The notes under the pieces: model-generated
The model's input: only the letters and a program-made list of their open reading frames with translations
What the model was told of the DNA's origin: nothing
Database searches by the model: none
Shown here: positions 2,745 through 17,117 of the stretch, piece by piece
Layout of the letters: every line of letters begins with the position of its first letter
Position numbering within the stretch: position 1 is the first letter of the stretch
Assembly: GCA_030425645.1 (NCBI GenBank)
Contig: JAUHZK010000007.1
Coordinates: forward strand, 1-64,000
Reading direction: 5' to 3'
DNA from: Gammaproteobacteria bacterium
GTDB lineage: Bacteria > Pseudomonadota > Gammaproteobacteria > JAPPPA01
DNA length: 64,000 bases
Made by a program: the position numbers and the translations under genes

Positions 2745-4669
2745 AACTAACAACTTATCTGAAATACGTTATCAAAATTGGTGCGTTCGGCCTTGTACAG
2801 TTAACCGGCAACGCATTCGCCGAGACTCAGCTTCTGGTTGGGCAAGCAGTCATCCCTCCTACTGCGTCTTCGGTCACCGTGACGTTTTCAACACCGCCCG
2901 ATAGCGCTATCCCACCGGCTGATGCTGTTATCTTTGAGAGCACTCCGATAGTGGTAGGCAGCAGCGATGGTAGGCAACAGTCATTAGGACTACTATTGCC
3001 AGACGATGCCGCTGACATTCGTATTTCGAATATCACTACCACCGGTTTCACAGCGAGCTATCAACGAAAAAGAAACACGCTGTTTGGCACAGTCACTGAA
3101 GTGACAGCCCCTACTGTGCCGATAACATTTCATTATATTGCGGTAACCCCCGGACGCAGCGAGCTCCCCGGAGGCATGGTGGTGGAGGCTGGAAAGCTAA
3201 CTAATCAAGCCTTTAATAATCCGGCCAACATCACATTCGAGAGCCCTTATAACACCATTCCTGCAGTTTTCACCGGATTCCAAAGTTTTAACAACCCAAC
3301 TGACTGGCTGGTCGCCAACACACTTAATGTGGCTACTCAAAGCGCTTCTTTTGTCATGACTAACCGCAGTGCTAGCGCGGCCGCGAACAGCGAAGATATT
3401 GGATACATCGCATTCAGCTCCGGTGCCACAAAGTTTGTAGCTAGTGACGGCTTAGCTACTGGCATTCAGGCATTACCAAACCAAGCCGGCATTAGCGGGC
3501 CTACCGGCAGCTACCCAACAGATTGTAACGAGGTACAACTCGATACTGACTATTTAACCGTGGTCGGTGATGCATCGTCTGTAACCTCTCCGGTAACAAT
3601 CGGAAACCAAGCCACTGCCAATCAGGCTGGCGGCACCGTCCGGCGCTGTACTAGCTCAAGTAATGACAAGGCAAGTTTTTATATCGACAGTGAGGCCATC
3701 TCAGGTAATCGTACTACGGTCAATGAGCTCACCAGTGTATTAGCATTAAACCGACCTTTTTATGCATCCTTTGGACTAGTAGCAGACTACCAACTAGACC
3801 AATGCCGAATTAACTTGGCCAATGCATCCATCCTAGATAGCGGGCCTTACACCCTAAACGGTGTGGGTAATGGTCTAACACGGGAAACTGTTACCGGCCT
3901 CCCAGCACCCGCGCCCCTATGCGGGGCCGCTGGTTTAAGCCTTAACCCAAGCTCTCCAAGCGGAGTCGCTGTCAGCGATGATCCGCTTTTTGACATTCAA
4001 GGCACCATTAGCATGGCTGCATGGTTTAATTTTAGTGGCACCCAAACCGAGACCGGGTTTCCCGAGCTACAGACGCTTGCTGGCAAAGGCACTGATAGCT
4101 TCCGCTTAGCGATCGAAAAAGTTTGCACCATCGATAGCGGCGGCACGCGGGTTATCGACGAAGCCTCAACCCGCGGAACCGGTATAAACCTTTGTGACGT
4201 TGCCGGTGGAACGGGTCTAGCCAGCTCAGAAATACACCATGTGATTCGGTTCGAGGTCACCAACCAGGCCAGTGGGCTAGCGACGTTTATTCGCAGCACG
4301 CAAATAGGTACTAACCAAGCCAACCTATTCTTTGACCCTCGCGGCGTAGTCACAGCTGGCAGTTGGCAACATGTTCGCGCCACCTTCGATGGCTTCAGCT
4401 TCAAACTGACAGTAGATGACAACCCCATAGCTGAGACCTTAGGCACCTCGGCCATTCCCCTAAACACTAACAACGAGCCCTTCTCGCTTGGCCTGAGTTA
4501 CAGCGGCACTACCACGTCAGCCCTATACGATGGCTTATTAGACGAGGTAACGCTGTGGGAAAACGCCTTATCTATGGAGCGCCTAAACACGCTGCACCGT
4601 CAACGAACACGCCTTTGCCAATCTTGTGGCAGAGAAATCATTTACTGGCGCGAGGTCTACAAGCGTTAG
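2741..4669 (+). CDS. LamG/concanavalin-like pilus-associated protein (MshQ-like)
   Basis: A 642-residue secreted protein with a signal peptide (MKLTTYLKYVIKIGAFGLVQ...NAFA). Residues about 25-350 are beta-rich with a repeat-like region (ESPYNTIPAVFTGFQSFNN). Residues about 350-620 look like a LamG/concanavalin fold (GTISMAAWFNFSG ... WQHVRATFDG ... DGLLDEVTLWENALS). Last place in the minor pilin operon matches MshQ. Vibrio MshQ is much longer and continues with a DUF6701 region; this one stops soon after the LamG domain at CQSCGREIIYWREVYKR, so it is a short variant or a different adhesin. Its stop overlaps the stop of the convergent kinase gene. Confidence 0.6.
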   Translation: MKLTTYLKYVIKIGAFGLVQLTGNAFAETQLLVGQAVIPPTASSVTVTFSTPPDSAIPPADAVIFESTPIVVGSSDGRQQSLGLLLPDDAADIRISNITTTGFTASYQRKRNTLFGTVTEVTAPTVPITFHYIAVTPGRSELPGGMVVEAGKLTNQAFNNPANITFESPYNTIPAVFTGFQSFNNPTDWLVANTLNVATQSASFVMTNRSASAAANSEDIGYIAFSSGATKFVASDGLATGIQALPNQAGISGPTGSYPTDCNEVQLDTDYLTVVGDASSVTSPVTIGNQATANQAGGTVRRCTSSSNDKASFYIDSEAISGNRTTVNELTSVLALNRPFYASFGLVADYQLDQCRINLANASILDSGPYTLNGVGNGLTRETVTGLPAPAPLCGAAGLSLNPSSPSGVAVSDDPLFDIQGTISMAAWFNFSGTQTETGFPELQTLAGKGTDSFRLAIEKVCTIDSGGTRVIDEASTRGTGINLCDVAGGTGLASSEIHHVIRFEVTNQASGLATFIRSTQIGTNQANLFFDPRGVVTAGSWQHVRATFDGFSFKLTVDDNPIAETLGTSAIPLNTNNEPFSLGLSYSGTTTSALYDGLLDEVTLWENALSMERLNTLHRQRTRLCQSCGREIIYWREVYKR

Positions 4670-6606
4670 CTAGACAAGTCTTTTAAGAACTCTGCCAGTG
4701 CTGCGCTAGCCTGGCCGACCGCACTATCAAATTCTGCCTCAAAAGCTTGCATATCAAACGCTCGTTCCTCGCGTGCAAGCAGCTCGACATCGGCCAACCG
4801 GGTCGCTAACCGCTTTAATCCCAAAGCGGCGCAAGCCGACTTCATCGCGTGAGCCTGCTGTGCGATAACAACAAAATCTGCTTCTACCAGGGCCTTGCGT
4901 AGCACAGCCCCTCGCGTTTCGAAGTCTTTGAGCACAGCTCCCGCCGTTGCCACCACAACGGGGCTGCCGACTTCATTAGCCAGTTGCCTTAAAACGACTT
5001 CGTCCAACGTTTTGATATCGTCACTGCACGCTTCCGACATAGGCTCAATATTTACCTTTGCCGGCAGCGAGGCATATTTCGTTAGGGTCGTCACTAAAGT
5101 CGCGTACGTAACAGGCTTGCTAATAAAGGCGTTCATGCCGGCAGCGAGGCAAGCCGTCCTATCCTCTTCAAATGCATTTGCTGACAACCCAATAATAGGT
5201 ATTGCCGCATTCTGCGAGGTCAATTGACGAATTTTAGCGGTGGCCTGTAATCCATCCAGCTTAGGCAGGCGAATATCCATAAGAATGATGTCCAGCTGCA
5301 CGCGGTCAGCAATCGCTACCGCAGAGACACCATCCTCAGCAAATTCAACCACGACCCCTGCTTTGTGCAACATCGCGCCGATTACCTGACGATTAGCTGC
5401 CGTATCCTCAACCAAGAGTACGCGTTTATCTCGCAATAGTTCTAAGTCAAGTTTCTGTTCCGTTTCAACTTGCGTAGCGCTGATAGGGGCCGTAAGTACA
5501 AGACTGAAGCAGCTGCCGTCCCCTACTACGCTTTGCACCTGTAACTTTCCTCCGAGCGCCGCCGCCAAGCGTTTACAAATCGCCAAGCCTAAACCCGCGC
5601 CACCGGCCAGCACCCCGTCACCGCGTTTAAATTCGTCAAACACTTCCGACATTTCGTCAGCCGATAAACCTGGCCCAGTGTCCTGCACAGCTATACAAAA
5701 ACTTAAATCCGTATCCGTCTGGGCATCGACTCTAAGCTGCAGCGTTACACCGCCGCGCTTGGTATAGGCGACAGCATTATTAAGAAGGTTGCTGATAATC
5801 TGACGAAGCATTTGACCATCGGTATAAACGGCTGGTAGCTGCCGGTCAGGAAGTTGTAACACCGTAGTTAGCCCTGAACCTTTAGCCAAACTATCGCAAC
5901 CAGCATGCAGTCCTTCCAGCAGCCCCCTTAAATCTACCACCGAAGGGTTCGACACCAAGGTATCTGATTCGATGCGAGAAAAGTCCAGTACGTTTGCTAG
6001 TTGCTGGGACAAGGAAAGTCCCCAATGGTGGGCGAGCTCAACCTGTTCCAGTTGCTCGCCGTCCAAGGCCGAGCCTTTGAGTAACTCAAGCGCCCCCAAA
6101 ACCACGTTTAGCGGCGAGCGTATTTCATGGCTCATGTGGGCCAAAAAACGAGATTTCGCTTCTGAGGCCAATTCGGCATTACGTTTGGCAGCTTCGAGCT
6201 CTGATTCTTTTTGCTTCCGCTCTGAAATATCGCGCACAAAGGCAGTAAAGAACTCTTTACCTTCGAGTTCAATCGGCACTACCGTTAATTCAGCAGGAAA
6301 CTCCGTGCCATCTGCACGCACCGCTGGCACTTCAATACGCTTTCTCAGTACAGGGCCCCGCCCGGTGGCGAAGTATTTCTTCATACCATCATGATGTGCT
6401 TGCCTTAGCGCCGGAAGAATAATAATTTCCGCAATGTCTTTACCTAGAACGTCGATACGTTTGTATCCAAATATATCCTCGGCCGAAGGACCAAATTCGA
6501 CAACTAATCCGCTAGCATCAATCGTAATTAAGGCGTCCAAGCTAGCTTCTGCGATCGCCCGCATAACATCATCGCCACTACGCTTTGTATATTGTTTTTC
6601 TGACAT
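4666..6606 (-). CDS. Hybrid sensor histidine kinase with receiver and HPt domains
   Basis: A 646-residue soluble BarA/LuxQ-type kinase. Domains: PAS about 12-130, HisKA with phospho-His160 in HMSHEIRSP, HATPase about 265-375 (N box NLLNNAVAY, G boxes DTGPGLS and GGAGLGLAI), receiver about 394-510 with Asp444 (MDIRLP) and Lys497, HPt about 535-640 with His586 (QQAHAMKSACAALG). No membrane segment is visible, so it senses a cytoplasmic cue or a partner. It starts 24 bp after the upstream kinase gene and ends the four-gene operon. The HPt could pass phosphate to the LuxO-like regulator, the job LuxU does in Vibrio (inference). Confidence 0.9.
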   Translation of the reverse strand: MSEKQYTKRSGDDVMRAIAEASLDALITIDASGLVVEFGPSAEDIFGYKRIDVLGKDIAEIIILPALRQAHHDGMKKYFATGRGPVLRKRIEVPAVRADGTEFPAELTVVPIELEGKEFFTAFVRDISERKQKESELEAAKRNAELASEAKSRFLAHMSHEIRSPLNVVLGALELLKGSALDGEQLEQVELAHHWGLSLSQQLANVLDFSRIESDTLVSNPSVVDLRGLLEGLHAGCDSLAKGSGLTTVLQLPDRQLPAVYTDGQMLRQIISNLLNNAVAYTKRGGVTLQLRVDAQTDTDLSFCIAVQDTGPGLSADEMSEVFDEFKRGDGVLAGGAGLGLAICKRLAAALGGKLQVQSVVGDGSCFSLVLTAPISATQVETEQKLDLELLRDKRVLLVEDTAANRQVIGAMLHKAGVVVEFAEDGVSAVAIADRVQLDIILMDIRLPKLDGLQATAKIRQLTSQNAAIPIIGLSANAFEEDRTACLAAGMNAFISKPVTYATLVTTLTKYASLPAKVNIEPMSEACSDDIKTLDEVVLRQLANEVGSPVVVATAGAVLKDFETRGAVLRKALVEADFVVIAQQAHAMKSACAALGLKRLATRLADVELLAREERAFDMQAFEAEFDSAVGQASAALAEFLKDLSS

Positions 6607-6630: not shown

Positions 6631-8832
6631 CTAATGATAAGGGGCTGGCCTCATCAGCGAGGAAAAAAGCGACTCCAGTTCCACTAACGTTATCGGTTTA
6701 GACAGCCAATGATGCACACCAACTTTACTCGCTTTCTCTCGCGCTTCTGGCCCCACATCGGCAGAAAGCGCCACCAATTGCAGGCTGGCCTTTTCTTCTT
6801 CGGTAAGCAAGGCAGCAGCAGACAAACCGTCTAATACGGGCATATGGATATCTAAAAAGACCACGTCATATGGTGCTTTACGAATCTCAGCCACTGCCTC
6901 AGCACCATTTTCAACCACAACGACCTGCTCAATCCCAAGTTGTTTCAACATCGAACACAAAACGAGTTGATTGGGGAGCACGTCTTCAGCGATCAGGATA
7001 CGTAGTTCGGCGCGTTTTTGTGTAGAGCCGCCAGGCTCTAGATCATTAACTGCAGACGGTAACTGGAGGTCGTGGCCAATAAGTTTGGCCACTCTGCTGG
7101 GAGTATATACGCCTTGTAACGCGGCGAGATCATGGCGCTTTAAAACATCCCCCTGCGCGCACAGCAAGTCACCATCGGCATTTGGGTCCTGGCGATAATC
7201 TAAGTTGCACAACTTAGCCGTGGCTCTTAGCACATCGCTGACATCGGGGGCGGCGTTACCATCTACAATTTCAACCGCCGAAGAGTCTAGCCCAGCATCC
7301 TCAGGTAAGACGCCGCCCATTACCATATCAACGGTAAACACACTGCCCACTCCGAGTTGGCTTTCTACGCTAATTGAACCGCCGCTCTGTTCACAAATTT
7401 GACGGCAGATAGCCAAGCCCAATCCCGTGCCGCCATGTCGCCTAGTGACAGACGCGTCGACTTGCGAGAACTCATCAAACAACGTGGCTACTCTGGTGGC
7501 CGGAATTCCCATCCCGGTATCGCTTACGCTAATTTTTAGCATCCCGCTATCACCATTTATAGGGCGCCAGCTGACATCAATGATGACCGTCCCTTCAGCT
7601 GTAAATTTAATGGCATTGGAAAGTAAGTTAAGCAGAACCTGCCGAGTTCTATGCGGATCTCCAACTAGTTCTGAGGGCAGTAAACCTGAGCATTTGAGAA
7701 ACAGCTTTAGCGATTTGTCATGGGCACTTGGGGCAACAATGTTGACGGCCTCTTCGAACACGGAACAGGCAGAAAATGGAACATGTTCAAATTGAAACTG
7801 ACCCGACTCGATCTTGGCAAAATCAAGGATGTCATCGACCAAGGCTAATAATGCATTACCGCCATTTGCAATGGTTTCAATACACGTTCTCTGCTCCGCG
7901 GATAATTGGGTATTGGCTAATACACTGCTCATGCCCAAAATTGAGTTGAGCGGCGTACGAATCTCATGAGACATATTAGCCACAAAACGCGTTCTAGCCG
8001 CGGATAACAATTCCGCATTTTCTTTGGCCTCACGCAAGCTTTCTTCTTGCGCTTTTTGGACACTAATATCGCGCTCAATCGCAATAAAATTGATCAATGC
8101 CCCAGCATCATCAAACACCGGGCTGCAGTCAATCGCAGTCCAAAATGGTTCTCCACTGCGCGTATAGTTAATAATTTCGACGTTAAAAGATTTTTGCTCG
8201 GCAATACATTGCCGCATATGGTGAATCGCTTCTGGAGCGGTATCTGGGCCCTGTAGAAGCTGCCCCGGGCTAATCCCAACAGCATCTTGCAACTGATAAC
8301 CAGTTTTCTCTACGAAACCGTCGTTAACCCATTCAACCTTGCCGTCCGCGCCGGTAATGATGACTATGTTGTCTGTACGCTGAGCAACTAGAGATAGCTT
8401 GCGTACTTGGTTCTGGCTTTCCGCACGTTGCTTTAGTATTAACTGCTGAGTGCTTAGGTCATAAAGCGATCCATACCACTTATTGTTGCGCCGACGGGCG
8501 CGCAGAATCATTAACGCGACGTGACCACTTTGGGTTTTTACCCCCACTTCGTCGGAGATACGGCTGGCGGTTTGCAGTTGTTCTCTCAGCAACTGGCGTG
8601 CATCTTCATTCTCGATAAAGTCGTAAATTGGCTGTCCTAGACTACTGGCATCCGCATAACCTAGCGCTCGCGACCAAGCCGGATTCAGTAGTTCCAAAGT
8701 GCCGTCTTCCGCGCAACAAAAAACCACTTCACCCAATAGCTCTACCAACGTATAGAAGGCCTGATTCCGTTGCTCCAACTCTGCGAGCAAGCGATTATTA
8801 GCTTGGACCTGAATTTGTTCTTTCACGCGCAA
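6631..8832 (-). CDS. PAS-PAS hybrid sensor histidine kinase with receiver domain
   Basis: A 733-residue cytoplasmic hybrid kinase. PAS1 about 25-125, PAS2 with PAC about 145-262, HisKA with His289 (ANMSHEIRTPLNSILG), HATPase about 390-505 (NLLSNAIKF, DTGMGIP, GGTGLGLAI), a degenerate linker 510-605, then a receiver about 610-727 with Asp661 (LDIHMP) and Lys712 (SKPI). It has no HPt, so its receiver must use one in trans, most simply that of the next gene. The start is uncertain: TTG at 8832 or GTG at 8826, neither with a good ribosome site. It begins 23 bp after the cysteine hydrolase stop. Confidence 0.9.
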   Translation of the reverse strand: MRVKEQIQVQANNRLLAELEQRNQAFYTLVELLGEVVFCCAEDGTLELLNPAWSRALGYADASSLGQPIYDFIENEDARQLLREQLQTASRISDEVGVKTQSGHVALMILRARRRNNKWYGSLYDLSTQQLILKQRAESQNQVRKLSLVAQRTDNIVIITGADGKVEWVNDGFVEKTGYQLQDAVGISPGQLLQGPDTAPEAIHHMRQCIAEQKSFNVEIINYTRSGEPFWTAIDCSPVFDDAGALINFIAIERDISVQKAQEESLREAKENAELLSAARTRFVANMSHEIRTPLNSILGMSSVLANTQLSAEQRTCIETIANGGNALLALVDDILDFAKIESGQFQFEHVPFSACSVFEEAVNIVAPSAHDKSLKLFLKCSGLLPSELVGDPHRTRQVLLNLLSNAIKFTAEGTVIIDVSWRPINGDSGMLKISVSDTGMGIPATRVATLFDEFSQVDASVTRRHGGTGLGLAICRQICEQSGGSISVESQLGVGSVFTVDMVMGGVLPEDAGLDSSAVEIVDGNAAPDVSDVLRATAKLCNLDYRQDPNADGDLLCAQGDVLKRHDLAALQGVYTPSRVAKLIGHDLQLPSAVNDLEPGGSTQKRAELRILIAEDVLPNQLVLCSMLKQLGIEQVVVVENGAEAVAEIRKAPYDVVFLDIHMPVLDGLSAAALLTEEEKASLQLVALSADVGPEAREKASKVGVHHWLSKPITLVELESLFSSLMRPAPYH

Positions 8833-9471: not shown

Positions 9472-10890
9472 TTAGATGACACCAGTGTCCCCCTCTTCCC
9501 ATTGTTTTTTCTTACGATAAATAGTTGAAGCACTGACCCCTAAATGTGCTGCGGCTACCGCGACATTCCCTCTGCAATGCGCTATCGCCCTTTCTATTAC
9601 CCGCTTTTCAACCTTCCACAAGGGAGCCAGCGGCTGCAAATCTTCATCGCCAGCAGCAGAGTTCTGAGCAACATCGATCAAGTGCGATGCTGGCTGGCCA
9701 GCGACCGAACCAATGTCATAACTAGCCAACGGCTCAGGCAGCATTGAAGCCTCTACTTGCTCACCATCCGCTAACAAAACGGTGTTATGAATCACATTCC
9801 CCAATTGGCGGACATTTCCTGGCCAAGGGTATGCCAAAAGCAGCTGCTCCACCTCCGCAGAGAACCCAGTAAATTGTTTGTTTTCCTCCTCGCAATACTG
9901 ATACAACATATGTAACGCAATGCGTAACACATCATCATCTCGCTCCCGCAGCGGCGGCAAACAAACGGGAATTACATTCAGCCGGTAATAAAGGTCTTCT
10001 CTAAACGTACCGCTGGCAATTAGCTCAAGCGGATTACGGTTAGTAGCACAAACAAACCTGACGTTAACTTGCTTTGCCTTGTTACTACCAACACGCTGAA
10101 CCTGGCCACTTTGAATAAAACGCAGTAGCTTTACTTGTTGATCAAGGTCCATTTCCCCAATTTCGTCTAGAAACAGTGTGCCGCCGTCAGCTTGCTCGGC
10201 GGCGCCAACGCGATCCGAGGTGGCACCACTAAAGGCGCCTTTCACATGACCAAATACTTCGCTCTCAAATAAGTCACGTGGAATAGCCCCACAATTCACT
10301 GCAATAAACGGCCCTTCAGATCGATCGCTACGCTCATGGATAGCCTGAGCACACAACTCTTTGCCGGTACCACTTTCTCCAGTCACAAATACGGCTGCAC
10401 GACTTTTAGCCGCGTTATCAATAATTCTGTATACAACCTGCATAGGCAGCGAACTACCCACAAAACCAGCGTAGCCATCACGTTGAATTTGCTCTTTCAG
10501 GACCTTGAGCTCCTGAGACATGCGGTGGTTACGCATTAGATTGTCTAAGGTGGTTTTTAAACGTTCCTGACTGAAAGGCTTTTCAATAAAGTCACCGGCA
10601 CCTAACCGCATTGACTTCACAGCCGCTTCAACCGAACTGTGACCTGTTATCACTACGACTTGCGTATCAACTTTCGCCGCCGTAAGCCGTTGCAAAATTT
10701 CATAACCGTGTAAATCGGGCAACTCCAGATCTAACAAGAGCACATCTGGAGACGTCTCTATGACCGCAGACAAACCTAAGTTGCCTGACTCAAACAATGA
10801 CACTTCGTAGCCTATCTGCCTCAGCATTTCGCTATATAAGGCGCCGATCGGCGAATTATCCTCAATCACTATCGCTTGTAATGCACTCAT
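9472..10890 (-). CDS. LuxO-like sigma-54-dependent response regulator
   Basis: A 472-residue NtrC-family activator. The receiver at about 3-118 has Asp54 (LLLDLELPD) and Lys104. The AAA+ domain has Walker A GESGTGKE near 171, the sigma-54 contact loop GAFSGA near 218 (consensus GAFTGA), and Walker B GGTLFLDEIGEMD. A Fis-type helix-turn-helix ends the protein (VAAAHLGVSASTIYRKK). From memory its central domain resembles Vibrio LuxO closely (GSS-MQ-VYR-ID-A, DLD-Q-KLLRFIQ-G--Q-VGS, VRFVCATNR). ATG 10890 follows GGATGGGG; a TTG five codons upstream is less likely. It leads a minus-strand operon with a sigma-54 promoter and LuxO-type operator upstream. Confidence 0.88.
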   Translation of the reverse strand: MSALQAIVIEDNSPIGALYSEMLRQIGYEVSLFESGNLGLSAVIETSPDVLLLDLELPDLHGYEILQRLTAAKVDTQVVVITGHSSVEAAVKSMRLGAGDFIEKPFSQERLKTTLDNLMRNHRMSQELKVLKEQIQRDGYAGFVGSSLPMQVVYRIIDNAAKSRAAVFVTGESGTGKELCAQAIHERSDRSEGPFIAVNCGAIPRDLFESEVFGHVKGAFSGATSDRVGAAEQADGGTLFLDEIGEMDLDQQVKLLRFIQSGQVQRVGSNKAKQVNVRFVCATNRNPLELIASGTFREDLYYRLNVIPVCLPPLRERDDDVLRIALHMLYQYCEEENKQFTGFSAEVEQLLLAYPWPGNVRQLGNVIHNTVLLADGEQVEASMLPEPLASYDIGSVAGQPASHLIDVAQNSAAGDEDLQPLAPLWKVEKRVIERAIAHCRGNVAVAAAHLGVSASTIYRKKKQWEEGDTGVI

Positions 10891-10939
10891 GGGATCCCCA
10901 TCCAATTTGCAAAGTTAACCGTATGAACAATACACCAAC

Positions 10940-10954
10940 GCAAATTGCGTACCA
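10940..10954 (-). promoter_or_regulatory. Predicted sigma-54 (-24/-12) promoter of the LuxO-like operon
   Basis: Read on the minus strand the site is TGGTACGCAATTTGC, which fits the sigma-54 consensus TGGYACR-N4-TTGC with correct GG-to-GC spacing. It predicts a start of transcription near 10928, giving a leader of about 38 nt before ATG 10890. The downstream gene is itself a sigma-54 activator, so autoactivation is plausible. Confidence 0.75.
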
Positions 10955-11005
10955 ATTTGCGACACCATAAAAATCAACAAGTTAGGAAAAGACGCAGCCG
11001 TAAGT

Positions 11006-11040
11006 CGCAATACGAGTTGCATTTTGCAACTCATATTGCG
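11006..11040. promoter_or_regulatory. 35-bp dyad containing a LuxO-type operator (TTGCATTTTGCAA)
   Basis: The core TTGCATTTTGCAA at 11017-11029 exactly fits TTGCA-W3-TGCAA, the site bound by LuxO upstream of the qrr sRNA genes in Vibrio. It sits in a larger inverted repeat, arms CGCAATA-x-GAGTTGCA and TGCAACTC-x-TATTGCG around TTT, with 16 of 17 pairs matching. Its centre is about 95 bp upstream of the predicted start site, a normal distance for a sigma-54 enhancer. Confidence 0.75.
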
Positions 11041-11069
11041 AATTCAATAGACGAGCTGTCTATCTGCCG

Positions 11070-11885
11070 CTAAGTATCTTTCTTAGCGGTTTTGGCTGGC
11101 CATAGCGGCCAAGCAATCAGCTCTCCGGTGCTGGCGTCGGGCAAATTCTCAACGCCGTAACCAGCGGGGTAACCGCGTGTAATACGGGCGGTACCAAACA
11201 GCACATCCCAAAAGAACAGCAGATTGCCGTAGTTGCCTTTGTAATGCGTATTAGGATCACTGGCGTGCAAACCGTGGTGAGCGGAATGGGTTGAGGGTGT
11301 CGAAATAACCCGTTCCAAAACCCACATCACAGGTCGCAGGGCTTTTATTTGGTAGAGCTTTTCATCCCAATGGACATCGCTGTGAGCACCGGTAATAACG
11401 GTCATTTTTACCGCAAGGTAATAGGCATAAACTTCACCCAGTCCTAAGTAAATCAAGATGCCGACAAACCAAAGGCTAGGCATAAAGAAGTAATACCAAA
11501 GGTTGTTGCGGTAAACCACGCGAATACTTAAATAGCTGACATCGTGGTGAGCGCGGTGCAGACGGTATAAAGGCGCAAAGCTATGCGAGAAACGATGCCA
11601 CCAATACTGCATCATGTCGTCTAACACCAACAGCAGCAGAATCTGTAGCGGCAGGCCGATATTAATTAAGGCGTCAGCATAATCTGGCGCCACCGTACTG
11701 CTCAGTTGGTAGCCCAAAAACAGTACCAGTGGCTGAGTAACTAGCAACAGCGTAAAGCCGGTCACTACTTCAATAATGCCGTCGCGCGAGGTTTGGCCGC
11801 GTTTATTCCAAAAGCCAGTCTTGGCAAACTCAAACAAACCAAAAACAATAAAAACGCTAATGATGTAATACATCTCTGGTTTCAT
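11070..11885 (-). CDS. Sterol desaturase/fatty acid hydroxylase family membrane protein
   Basis: A 271-residue integral membrane di-iron enzyme with about four to five hydrophobic segments. The three histidine boxes are present: HRFSH near residue 97, HRAHH near 109 and HSAHHGLH near 200. Family members hydroxylate or desaturate sterols, fatty acids, carotenoids or alkylglycerols; the substrate cannot be read here. ATG 11885 follows GGAGTG. It stands alone on the minus strand, divergent from the ABC operon and upstream of the LuxO-like operon, separated from that by the operator region. A second family member lies at 21358. Confidence 0.85.
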   Translation of the reverse strand: MKPEMYYIISVFIVFGLFEFAKTGFWNKRGQTSRDGIIEVVTGFTLLLVTQPLVLFLGYQLSSTVAPDYADALINIGLPLQILLLLVLDDMMQYWWHRFSHSFAPLYRLHRAHHDVSYLSIRVVYRNNLWYYFFMPSLWFVGILIYLGLGEVYAYYLAVKMTVITGAHSDVHWDEKLYQIKALRPVMWVLERVISTPSTHSAHHGLHASDPNTHYKGNYGNLLFFWDVLFGTARITRGYPAGYGVENLPDASTGELIAWPLWPAKTAKKDT

Positions 11886-16258: not shown

Positions 16259-16855
16259 TTACGAGGCGTGCAAAAGTTCAGAAACCTGAATAACGCTGGC
16301 CGCGACTTGCACTAATGGCTGCGCCCGGTTCATCGCCGCCTGACGCATAACGCGATAGGCCTCCTGCTCAGAAAGCTTTTTCTTCTCCATCAAAATGCCC
16401 TTGGCTCGCTCTACAAGTTTCCGTTCTCGGAGCTTGGTCTTAGCATTTTCTACATCGTTAATAAGCTGTTGGCGGGCCTGAAACCGCATGCTAGCCAACT
16501 CAGCCAATAAGGCCGCTCGTTGTTTTGAGCATTCGCCTAAAACATAAGTGCTGGCACCCGTTTCCACCGCTTGAGCCAACAACGCTGGCTGATGCTGTTG
16601 TACGCAAAGAATCACCGGGCAAGGTGAGTGAGCATCTAGCTCTTTTAGTTGCTGCACCGTCGACAGGCTCAATGCATCTAATACCAACACCAATAATGCT
16701 GGCGAGCTAGAACCCATTGCCACGCTAACATCTAGCTGGTTTTGGCTACTCACTTCGCAAACGTAACCAGCTTCACGTAAACCAAAGCGCAGGCTGTCTA
16801 TCAATGACTCTGCATCGCGACATACCAGCAACTGGGCAGATTGCGGAGAAGACAT
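16259..16855 (-). CDS. ANTAR-domain response regulator (NasT-like)
   Basis: A 198-residue protein with a degenerate receiver-like domain (about 7-125; LLVLVLDALSLSTVQQLKELD) and a C-terminal ANTAR domain (about 130-190) with AKTKLRERKLVERAKGILMEKKKLSEQEAYRVMRQAAMN, the three-helix RNA-binding module. NasT-type proteins bind paired hexaloop hairpins in leader RNAs and prevent termination, usually under control of the nitrate sensor NasS. No nasS is in this window. The gene is upstream of and codirectional with the porin; the intergenic leader carries a fitting hairpin pair. Confidence 0.87.
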   Translation of the reverse strand: MSSPQSAQLLVCRDAESLIDSLRFGLREAGYVCEVSSQNQLDVSVAMGSSSPALLVLVLDALSLSTVQQLKELDAHSPCPVILCVQQHQPALLAQAVETGASTYVLGECSKQRAALLAELASMRFQARQQLINDVENAKTKLRERKLVERAKGILMEKKKLSEQEAYRVMRQAAMNRAQPLVQVAASVIQVSELLHAS

Positions 16856-17117
16856 GGTGGAACCCTAACTAAATCTTGTGCACTGCACCATGCAACTGCC
16901 GTGCCAACTTAATTTCCTCAGTCAGATCAAGTGCTGATCAGATGGCGCGCAAAGCCAATACAGAAAACGTATTTAGCGTTTTACTGGGAATACAAAAAGC
17001 TTGGCCGCACAGCCAGCCTCTAACAAGAGGCTTGCCAATGCAGGCAAGCCCCCTTGGCGGGAAACTAAGACAAACAAAAAAGGCCGGATAAACATCGGCC
17101 AGCGATTGGAGACAAAG
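16856..17117 (+). promoter_or_regulatory. almA-like upstream region with overlapping leader hairpins
   Basis: The 262 bp between the ANTAR gene and the monooxygenase gene must hold two divergent promoters. On the plus strand a hairpin GCCTCT-AACA-AGAGGC (17016-17031) overlaps a second, GGCTTGCC-AATGCA-GGCAAGCC (17029-17050), so they compete. A third dyad GGCCG/CGGCC (about 17082-17100) reads on the minus strand as a stem followed by TTTTTT, a possible terminator of an antisense transcript. Confidence 0.45.

Follow-up and report, generated by a model that had tools for sequence, protein, structure and literature searches.

A predicted self-activated LuxO-type two-component operon outside Vibrio, headed by a LuxO enhancer dyad and a sigma-54-type promoter

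LuxO is the Vibrio quorum regulator that activates the Qrr small RNAs, and glnA-ntrBC is a positively autoregulated NtrC operon. The published LuxO enhancer motif, UAS_LuxO, is TTGCAWWWTGCAA (PMC10162802). In V. harveyi, LuxO represses luxO (PMC3482212), and SypG, a V. fischeri paralogue that is about 47-48% identical to LuxO, can use the LuxO sites at qrr1 (PMC10162802). Here we analysed a 64-kb stretch of DNA (64,000 nucleotides, the window) in which a UAS_LuxO match and a -24/-12 site stand before a two-component operon (Table 1). We consider it likely, from the sequence, that these two sites control a self-activated operon, whose LuxO-type regulator would activate its own transcription through the dyad and sigma-54. 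None of the open-access literature that we searched (subscription papers were outside its scope) describes a LuxO operon that activates itself.

Table 1 Features of the LuxO-type operon and its control region in the window
Feature	Position	Strand	Evidence or remark
LuxO-type enhancer dyad TTGCATTTTGCAA	11017..11029		Exact UAS_LuxO match; sole W3 copy in genome
Extended inverted repeat around dyad	11002..11044		20-nt arms, 90% complementary, 3 nt centre (repeat search)
Predicted -24/-12 (sigma-54) promoter TGGTACGCAATTTGC	10940..10954	-	1 mismatch to TGGYACGN4TTGCW; rpoN in genome
Second LuxO-core dyad CGCAAATTGCG (YGCA-N3-TGCR)	10939..10949		Overlaps -12 element; possible autorepression site
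LuxO-type sigma-54 activator, 472 aa: receiver, AAA+ with GAFSGA, Fis-type HTH	9472..10890	-	Pfam; NF041946 575 bits
Isochorismatase-like protein, 196 aa	8856..9446	-	PF00857; PDB 3kl2 relative; 25-bp gap to preceding gene
Hybrid histidine kinase 1, 733 aa: PAS-PAS-HisKA-HATPase-REC	6631..8832	-	Pfam; 23-bp gap to preceding gene
Hybrid histidine kinase 2, 646 aa: PAS-HisKA-HATPase-REC-HPt (C-terminal)	4666..6606	-	Pfam; 24-bp gap to preceding gene
Fatty-acid-hydroxylase gene, upstream neighbour	11070-11885	-	

The promoter heads a tight four-gene minus-strand operon with gaps of about 24 bp, encoding the regulator, an isochorismatase-like protein and two hybrid kinases. With the Vibrio LuxO-Qrr system it shares the UAS_LuxO motif, the sigma-54 promoter type, a related regulator (51% identical to Photobacterium angustum LuxO) and a conserved recognition helix. 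It differs in its target, which here is the regulator's own kinase operon and in Vibrio a small RNA; in its kinases, which are PAS hybrids in which no autoinducer-binding domain was recognised, PAS being the only sensor domain that Pfam found in either; and in its HPt domain, which is fused to a kinase, whereas in Vibrio it is LuxU. In addition, V. harveyi luxO is autorepressed. No qrr-like gene was found in the present genome at the stringency used. Like SypG, the regulator is a LuxO-type sigma-54 activator with protein-coding targets, but the reported UAS of SypG is TTCTCANNNTGMDWN, and syp polysaccharide genes were not seen beside the operon. The proposed wiring resembles that of glnA-ntrBC, in that a sigma-54 activator raises transcription of its own kinase-regulator operon, and differs from it in regulator family, operator and inputs.

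A preliminary description of this DNA had placed an exact TTGCA-W3-TGCAA dyad and a near-perfect minus-strand -24/-12 site before the regulator's own operon, with about 95 bp between the dyad centre and the predicted start. Inspection of the letters and coordinates and the order of the genes bore this out. Pattern searches of the 2.75-Mb genome returned a single copy of TTGCAWWWTGCAA, at the main dyad, and four further exact TTGCA-N3-TGCAA sites, none of them W3. Three of these look like coding sequence, and the other lacks a sigma-54 site in its vicinity. The main dyad forms the centre of a longer inverted repeat (arms 11002-11021 and 11025-11044), in which outer half-sites TCGCA (11005-11009) and TGCGA (11037-11041) each lie 12 bp from the inner half-site; a CGCA half-site 5' of the dyad also aligns in two relatives (G339 and G430). 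The repeat has a strong RNA fold, with a 17-bp stem and a region z of -5.4, and might be read as a hairpin or terminator of the upstream fatty-acid-hydroxylase gene. We regard this as highly improbable: no T-run follows the repeat, no terminator-like site was found, and relatives keep their dyads without long inverted-repeat arms.

The only mismatch of TGGTACGCAATTTGC to the sigma-54 consensus is its last position, where W is G. With the start placed by convention, transcription is predicted to begin near 10928, giving a 38-nt leader before the ATG at 10890 and a distance of 95 bp from the dyad centre at 11023. The genome encodes rpoN, and the dyad lies 62 bp upstream of the -24/-12 site, so the sequence elements of a sigma-54 promoter with an enhancer (a -24 GG/-12 GC element, RpoN and an upstream dyad) were all found. 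The second dyad on the -12 element is one of eight YGCA-N3-TGCR core dyads in the window. It would suit another reading, in which the main dyad is an autorepressor operator as at V. harveyi luxO, through which the regulator would hold down its own operon, and the -24/-12 match is of secondary importance; in three relatives (G184, G080 and G026), dyads that lie no more than 65 bp from the start of luxO, as well as the autorepression known from V. harveyi (PMC3482212), point the same way. We nevertheless think it rather unlikely, since the main dyad stands upstream of a strong -24/-12 site at an enhancer distance of 62 bp, no sigma-70-like promoter was found overlapping it, and the same pairing of dyad and promoter occurs at 12 of 18 operon heads, as described below. 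Elsewhere in the window, a perfect -24/-12 site (TGGCACGGCAGTTGCA, 16891-16906, minus strand), overlapped by TTGCATGGTGCAG, is followed some 35 nt downstream by a gene for an ANTAR-domain protein (16259-16855). We considered whether it might be another LuxO target and discarded the idea, as the site precedes the ANTAR gene and its 250 bp upstream contain no LuxO dyad with two or fewer mismatches.

Against the NCBIfam LuxO equivalog NF041946, the regulator scored below the curated cut-off of 800 bits, and it is therefore named LuxO-type rather than LuxO. Over 387 residues (receiver and AAA+), the regulator is 51% identical to 5ep0, which we take to be Photobacterium angustum LuxO, versus 38% and 35% to the NtrC-type and PilR-type proteins of the same genome. 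Both these identities and the tree sort it with LuxO and not with NtrC or PilR. Its HTH keeps nine (G, N, L, V, S, I, Y, R and K) of the 11 residues on which V. cholerae LuxO depends to bind DNA (PMC11407668), the two changes being I411 to V, which is conservative, and L429 to K. The GAFTGA loop reads GAFSGA, which counts against the self-activation reading, although the change is common to the clade (G026, G088, G429, G430, G431 and G435) and PMC4641369 lists it as a variant that permits activation. The sigma-54 activator domain had six matches in the genome, of which three scored high: an NtrC-type protein (near ntrB), a PilR-type protein (near pilA) and the operon's own LuxO-type regulator. 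A real sigma-54 promoter served by one of the first two, with the dyad doing something else, is conceivable because both are encoded, but very unlikely, as their HTHs differ from the LuxO recognition helix that the operon's own regulator matches and the dyad is LuxO's own motif.

The joint occurrence of the two sites was searched across the genome as a composite pattern (dyad core, about 39-99 bp, then -24/-12 core). It had three matches, and only that at 10940-11029 was judged intergenic; the other two were called coding by their sequence, without gene calls. A looser pattern of dyad and sigma-54 site had 32 matches in the genome, most of which look coding. The sole intergenic match precedes a protein gene, and the qrr-like sites that the preliminary description had proposed to look for elsewhere in the genome were not recovered at the stringency of the search. 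An Rfam scan of the window at the gathering threshold also gave no matches. Single motifs are not rare, with 53 sigma-54-like matches (at most one mismatch) in the genome versus 37 for the reversed pattern, and a chance juxtaposition of two motifs might be considered on this ground. The reversed-pattern control for the composite search was composition-biased, and we therefore relied on dinucleotide shuffles of the promoter region, in which the composite turned up 0 times in 400 under the strict rule and 3 times in 1000 under the loose one. As the same composite also stands at 11 other LuxO-type heads, we give chance hardly any weight, and self-activation through the dyad and sigma-54 remains the preferred reading.

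Of 369 genomes sampled from the class, 15 had LuxO-type proteins, and searches of two orders yielded further ones; no genome passed the NF041946 cut-off in the three profile searches (class sample and two orders). The only same-genus genome (88% complete) had no LuxO-type match and thus offered no close footprint. A scan of genome contigs with the whole regulator returned only activators of 34-40% identity from distant groups, none of which was a LuxO-type locus. A readable operon head was available for 18 non-Vibrio LuxO-type loci, the operon of the window among them. Under a loose rule, whose heads and distance range were fixed once the loci had been looked at and which tolerated three mismatches in the sigma-54 site, a dyad with a -24/-12-like site was found at 12 of these 18 heads, or 11 of the 17 others (shuffle expectation 0.03); some of the regions, such as G430 and G431, are related to each other. 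Under a strict rule applied to 17 regions, the composite was present in six (expected 0.0075) and dyads alone in 12 (expected 1.3); in G430, G431 and G435, the head was the EAL gene for the loose rule and luxO for the strict one. The composite was absent at the assigned head in G429, G128, G184, G080, G302 and G457, and that of G026 is weak and doubtful. As a raw count, 14 of 230 predicted ORF heads in LuxO-type loci carry it. The dyad and the -24 element are 62-63 bp apart at promoters of G000, G339, G345, G088 and G430, which belong to separate lineages. The gaps lean to helical phasing at a period of 10.5 bp (p 0.0035; 0.03 on distinct values), which was one of five periods tried, the others giving p from 0.19 to 0.0004. 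The same wiring in distant relatives points to a common self-reinforcing form of LuxO circuit rather than to an accident of one genome. Self-wiring by a dyad and a -24/-12 site is thus supported, as a prediction, as common among LuxO-type loci of the class and more general than the preliminary description had proposed.

The genes between these promoters and luxO vary, and those at the heads encode partners in signalling. Two dyads and TGGTACGCGTTTTGCA precede an HPt gene followed by luxO in G094, and dyads with TGGCATAGGGATTGCT precede an H-NOX gene and then luxO in G171. In G218, G263 and G153, dyads and -24/-12-like sites come before a PhnD-like gene, a kinase and luxO, while in G345 a dyad with such a site precedes a receiver gene, a PhnD-like gene, a kinase and luxO; in G430, G431 and G435, an EAL gene and then luxO follow. 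Pfam supported the head-gene domains in G094 (HPt), G171 (H-NOX), G153 and G218 (PhnD-like), G430 and G435 (EAL) and G345 (receiver), whereas the heads of G263 and G431 and the PhnD-like gene of G345 were assigned by resemblance. The H-NOX (haem-NO-binding) gene of G171 (L159, 8809-9354) lies directly upstream of the luxO-type gene, behind the dyad/sigma-54 promoter; H-NOX is a known input to Vibrio LuxO, which this arrangement recalls. The composite also precedes a kinase gene in G088, divergent small genes of 130, 163, 125 and 125 aa in G218, G345, G455 and G457, respectively, and STAS genes near luxO in G153 (L148, 7672-8019) and G088 (L150, 3979-4311). These STAS genes are candidate outputs of LuxO-type systems.

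In G339 (L155), 107 nt of terminator-ended intergenic sequence, with a GC hairpin and a T-run, separate the dyad/sigma-54 promoter from luxO. This stretch has a better fold than most of its shuffles (z -2.55), and it is possibly a Qrr-like RNA outside Vibrio; the Qrr family was absent from an Rfam scan of the relatives at E<=1, this stretch included. In a FastTree tree of the receiver and AAA+ domains (387 columns), which included P. angustum LuxO as its one Vibrionaceae sequence, that protein fell within the non-Vibrio sequences, next to G094 (support 0.91). The HPt-luxO operon of G094 carries dyads and a -24/-12 site, and self-activation may thus predate the Qrr wiring. Somewhat short of an even chance, in our estimate, is the wider proposal that the LuxO family originally served to activate its own signalling operon through a LuxO dyad and sigma-54, with swappable inputs, and that Vibrio LuxO-Qrr is a derived rewiring to a small RNA, with a G339-like locus as a possible intermediate.

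The sites, the gene order, rpoN, the DNA-contact residues and the recurrence of the composite can be read directly from sequence, and from them we infer binding, the start, the order of the phosphorelay and its net sign as follows. Cytoplasmic signals sensed by the two PAS hybrid kinases would set the phosphorylation of the regulator, the phosphate probably arriving via the HPt domain of kinase 2, its likely donor. The phosphorylated regulator would bind the main dyad and loop to RNA polymerase-sigma-54 at the -24/-12 site, and transcription from about 10928 would then cover the whole operon, from the regulator through the isochorismatase-like protein to the two kinases. The response would grow as regulator and kinases accumulate, as in an amplifier or a switch, and the loop may be held in check by the weaker LuxO-core sites that lie on the -12 element. 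The sign of the feedback cannot be assumed, because hybrid kinases can also act as phosphatases, V. harveyi luxO is autorepressed and the second dyad covers the -12 element. Of the positive-feedback circuit in the preliminary description, self-activation is thus supported as a prediction by the 11 of 17 other heads, and a positive sign is only the likeliest one. In lineages outside Vibrio, the LuxO protein type, its operator and its promoter are arranged such that they could amplify their own sensor kinases. If this is true, it gives the Vibrio circuit an ancestor that can be tested, leads one to expect switch-like rather than graded responses, and provides a motif with which LuxO regulons, and possibly Qrr-like RNAs, can be sought in bacteria outside Vibrio.

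The isochorismatase-like protein of the operon has IGFQ at the motif position where catalytic-Asp members of the family have IDxQ. The motif LIG[FY]QNDYF replaces the usual Asp motif in this protein and in its counterparts in G191 (L269) and G349 (L270). The isochorismatase-like gene also precedes a kinase-1-like PAS kinase in G349, and apparently in G342 (L271), so that hydrolase and kinase look like a movable pair.
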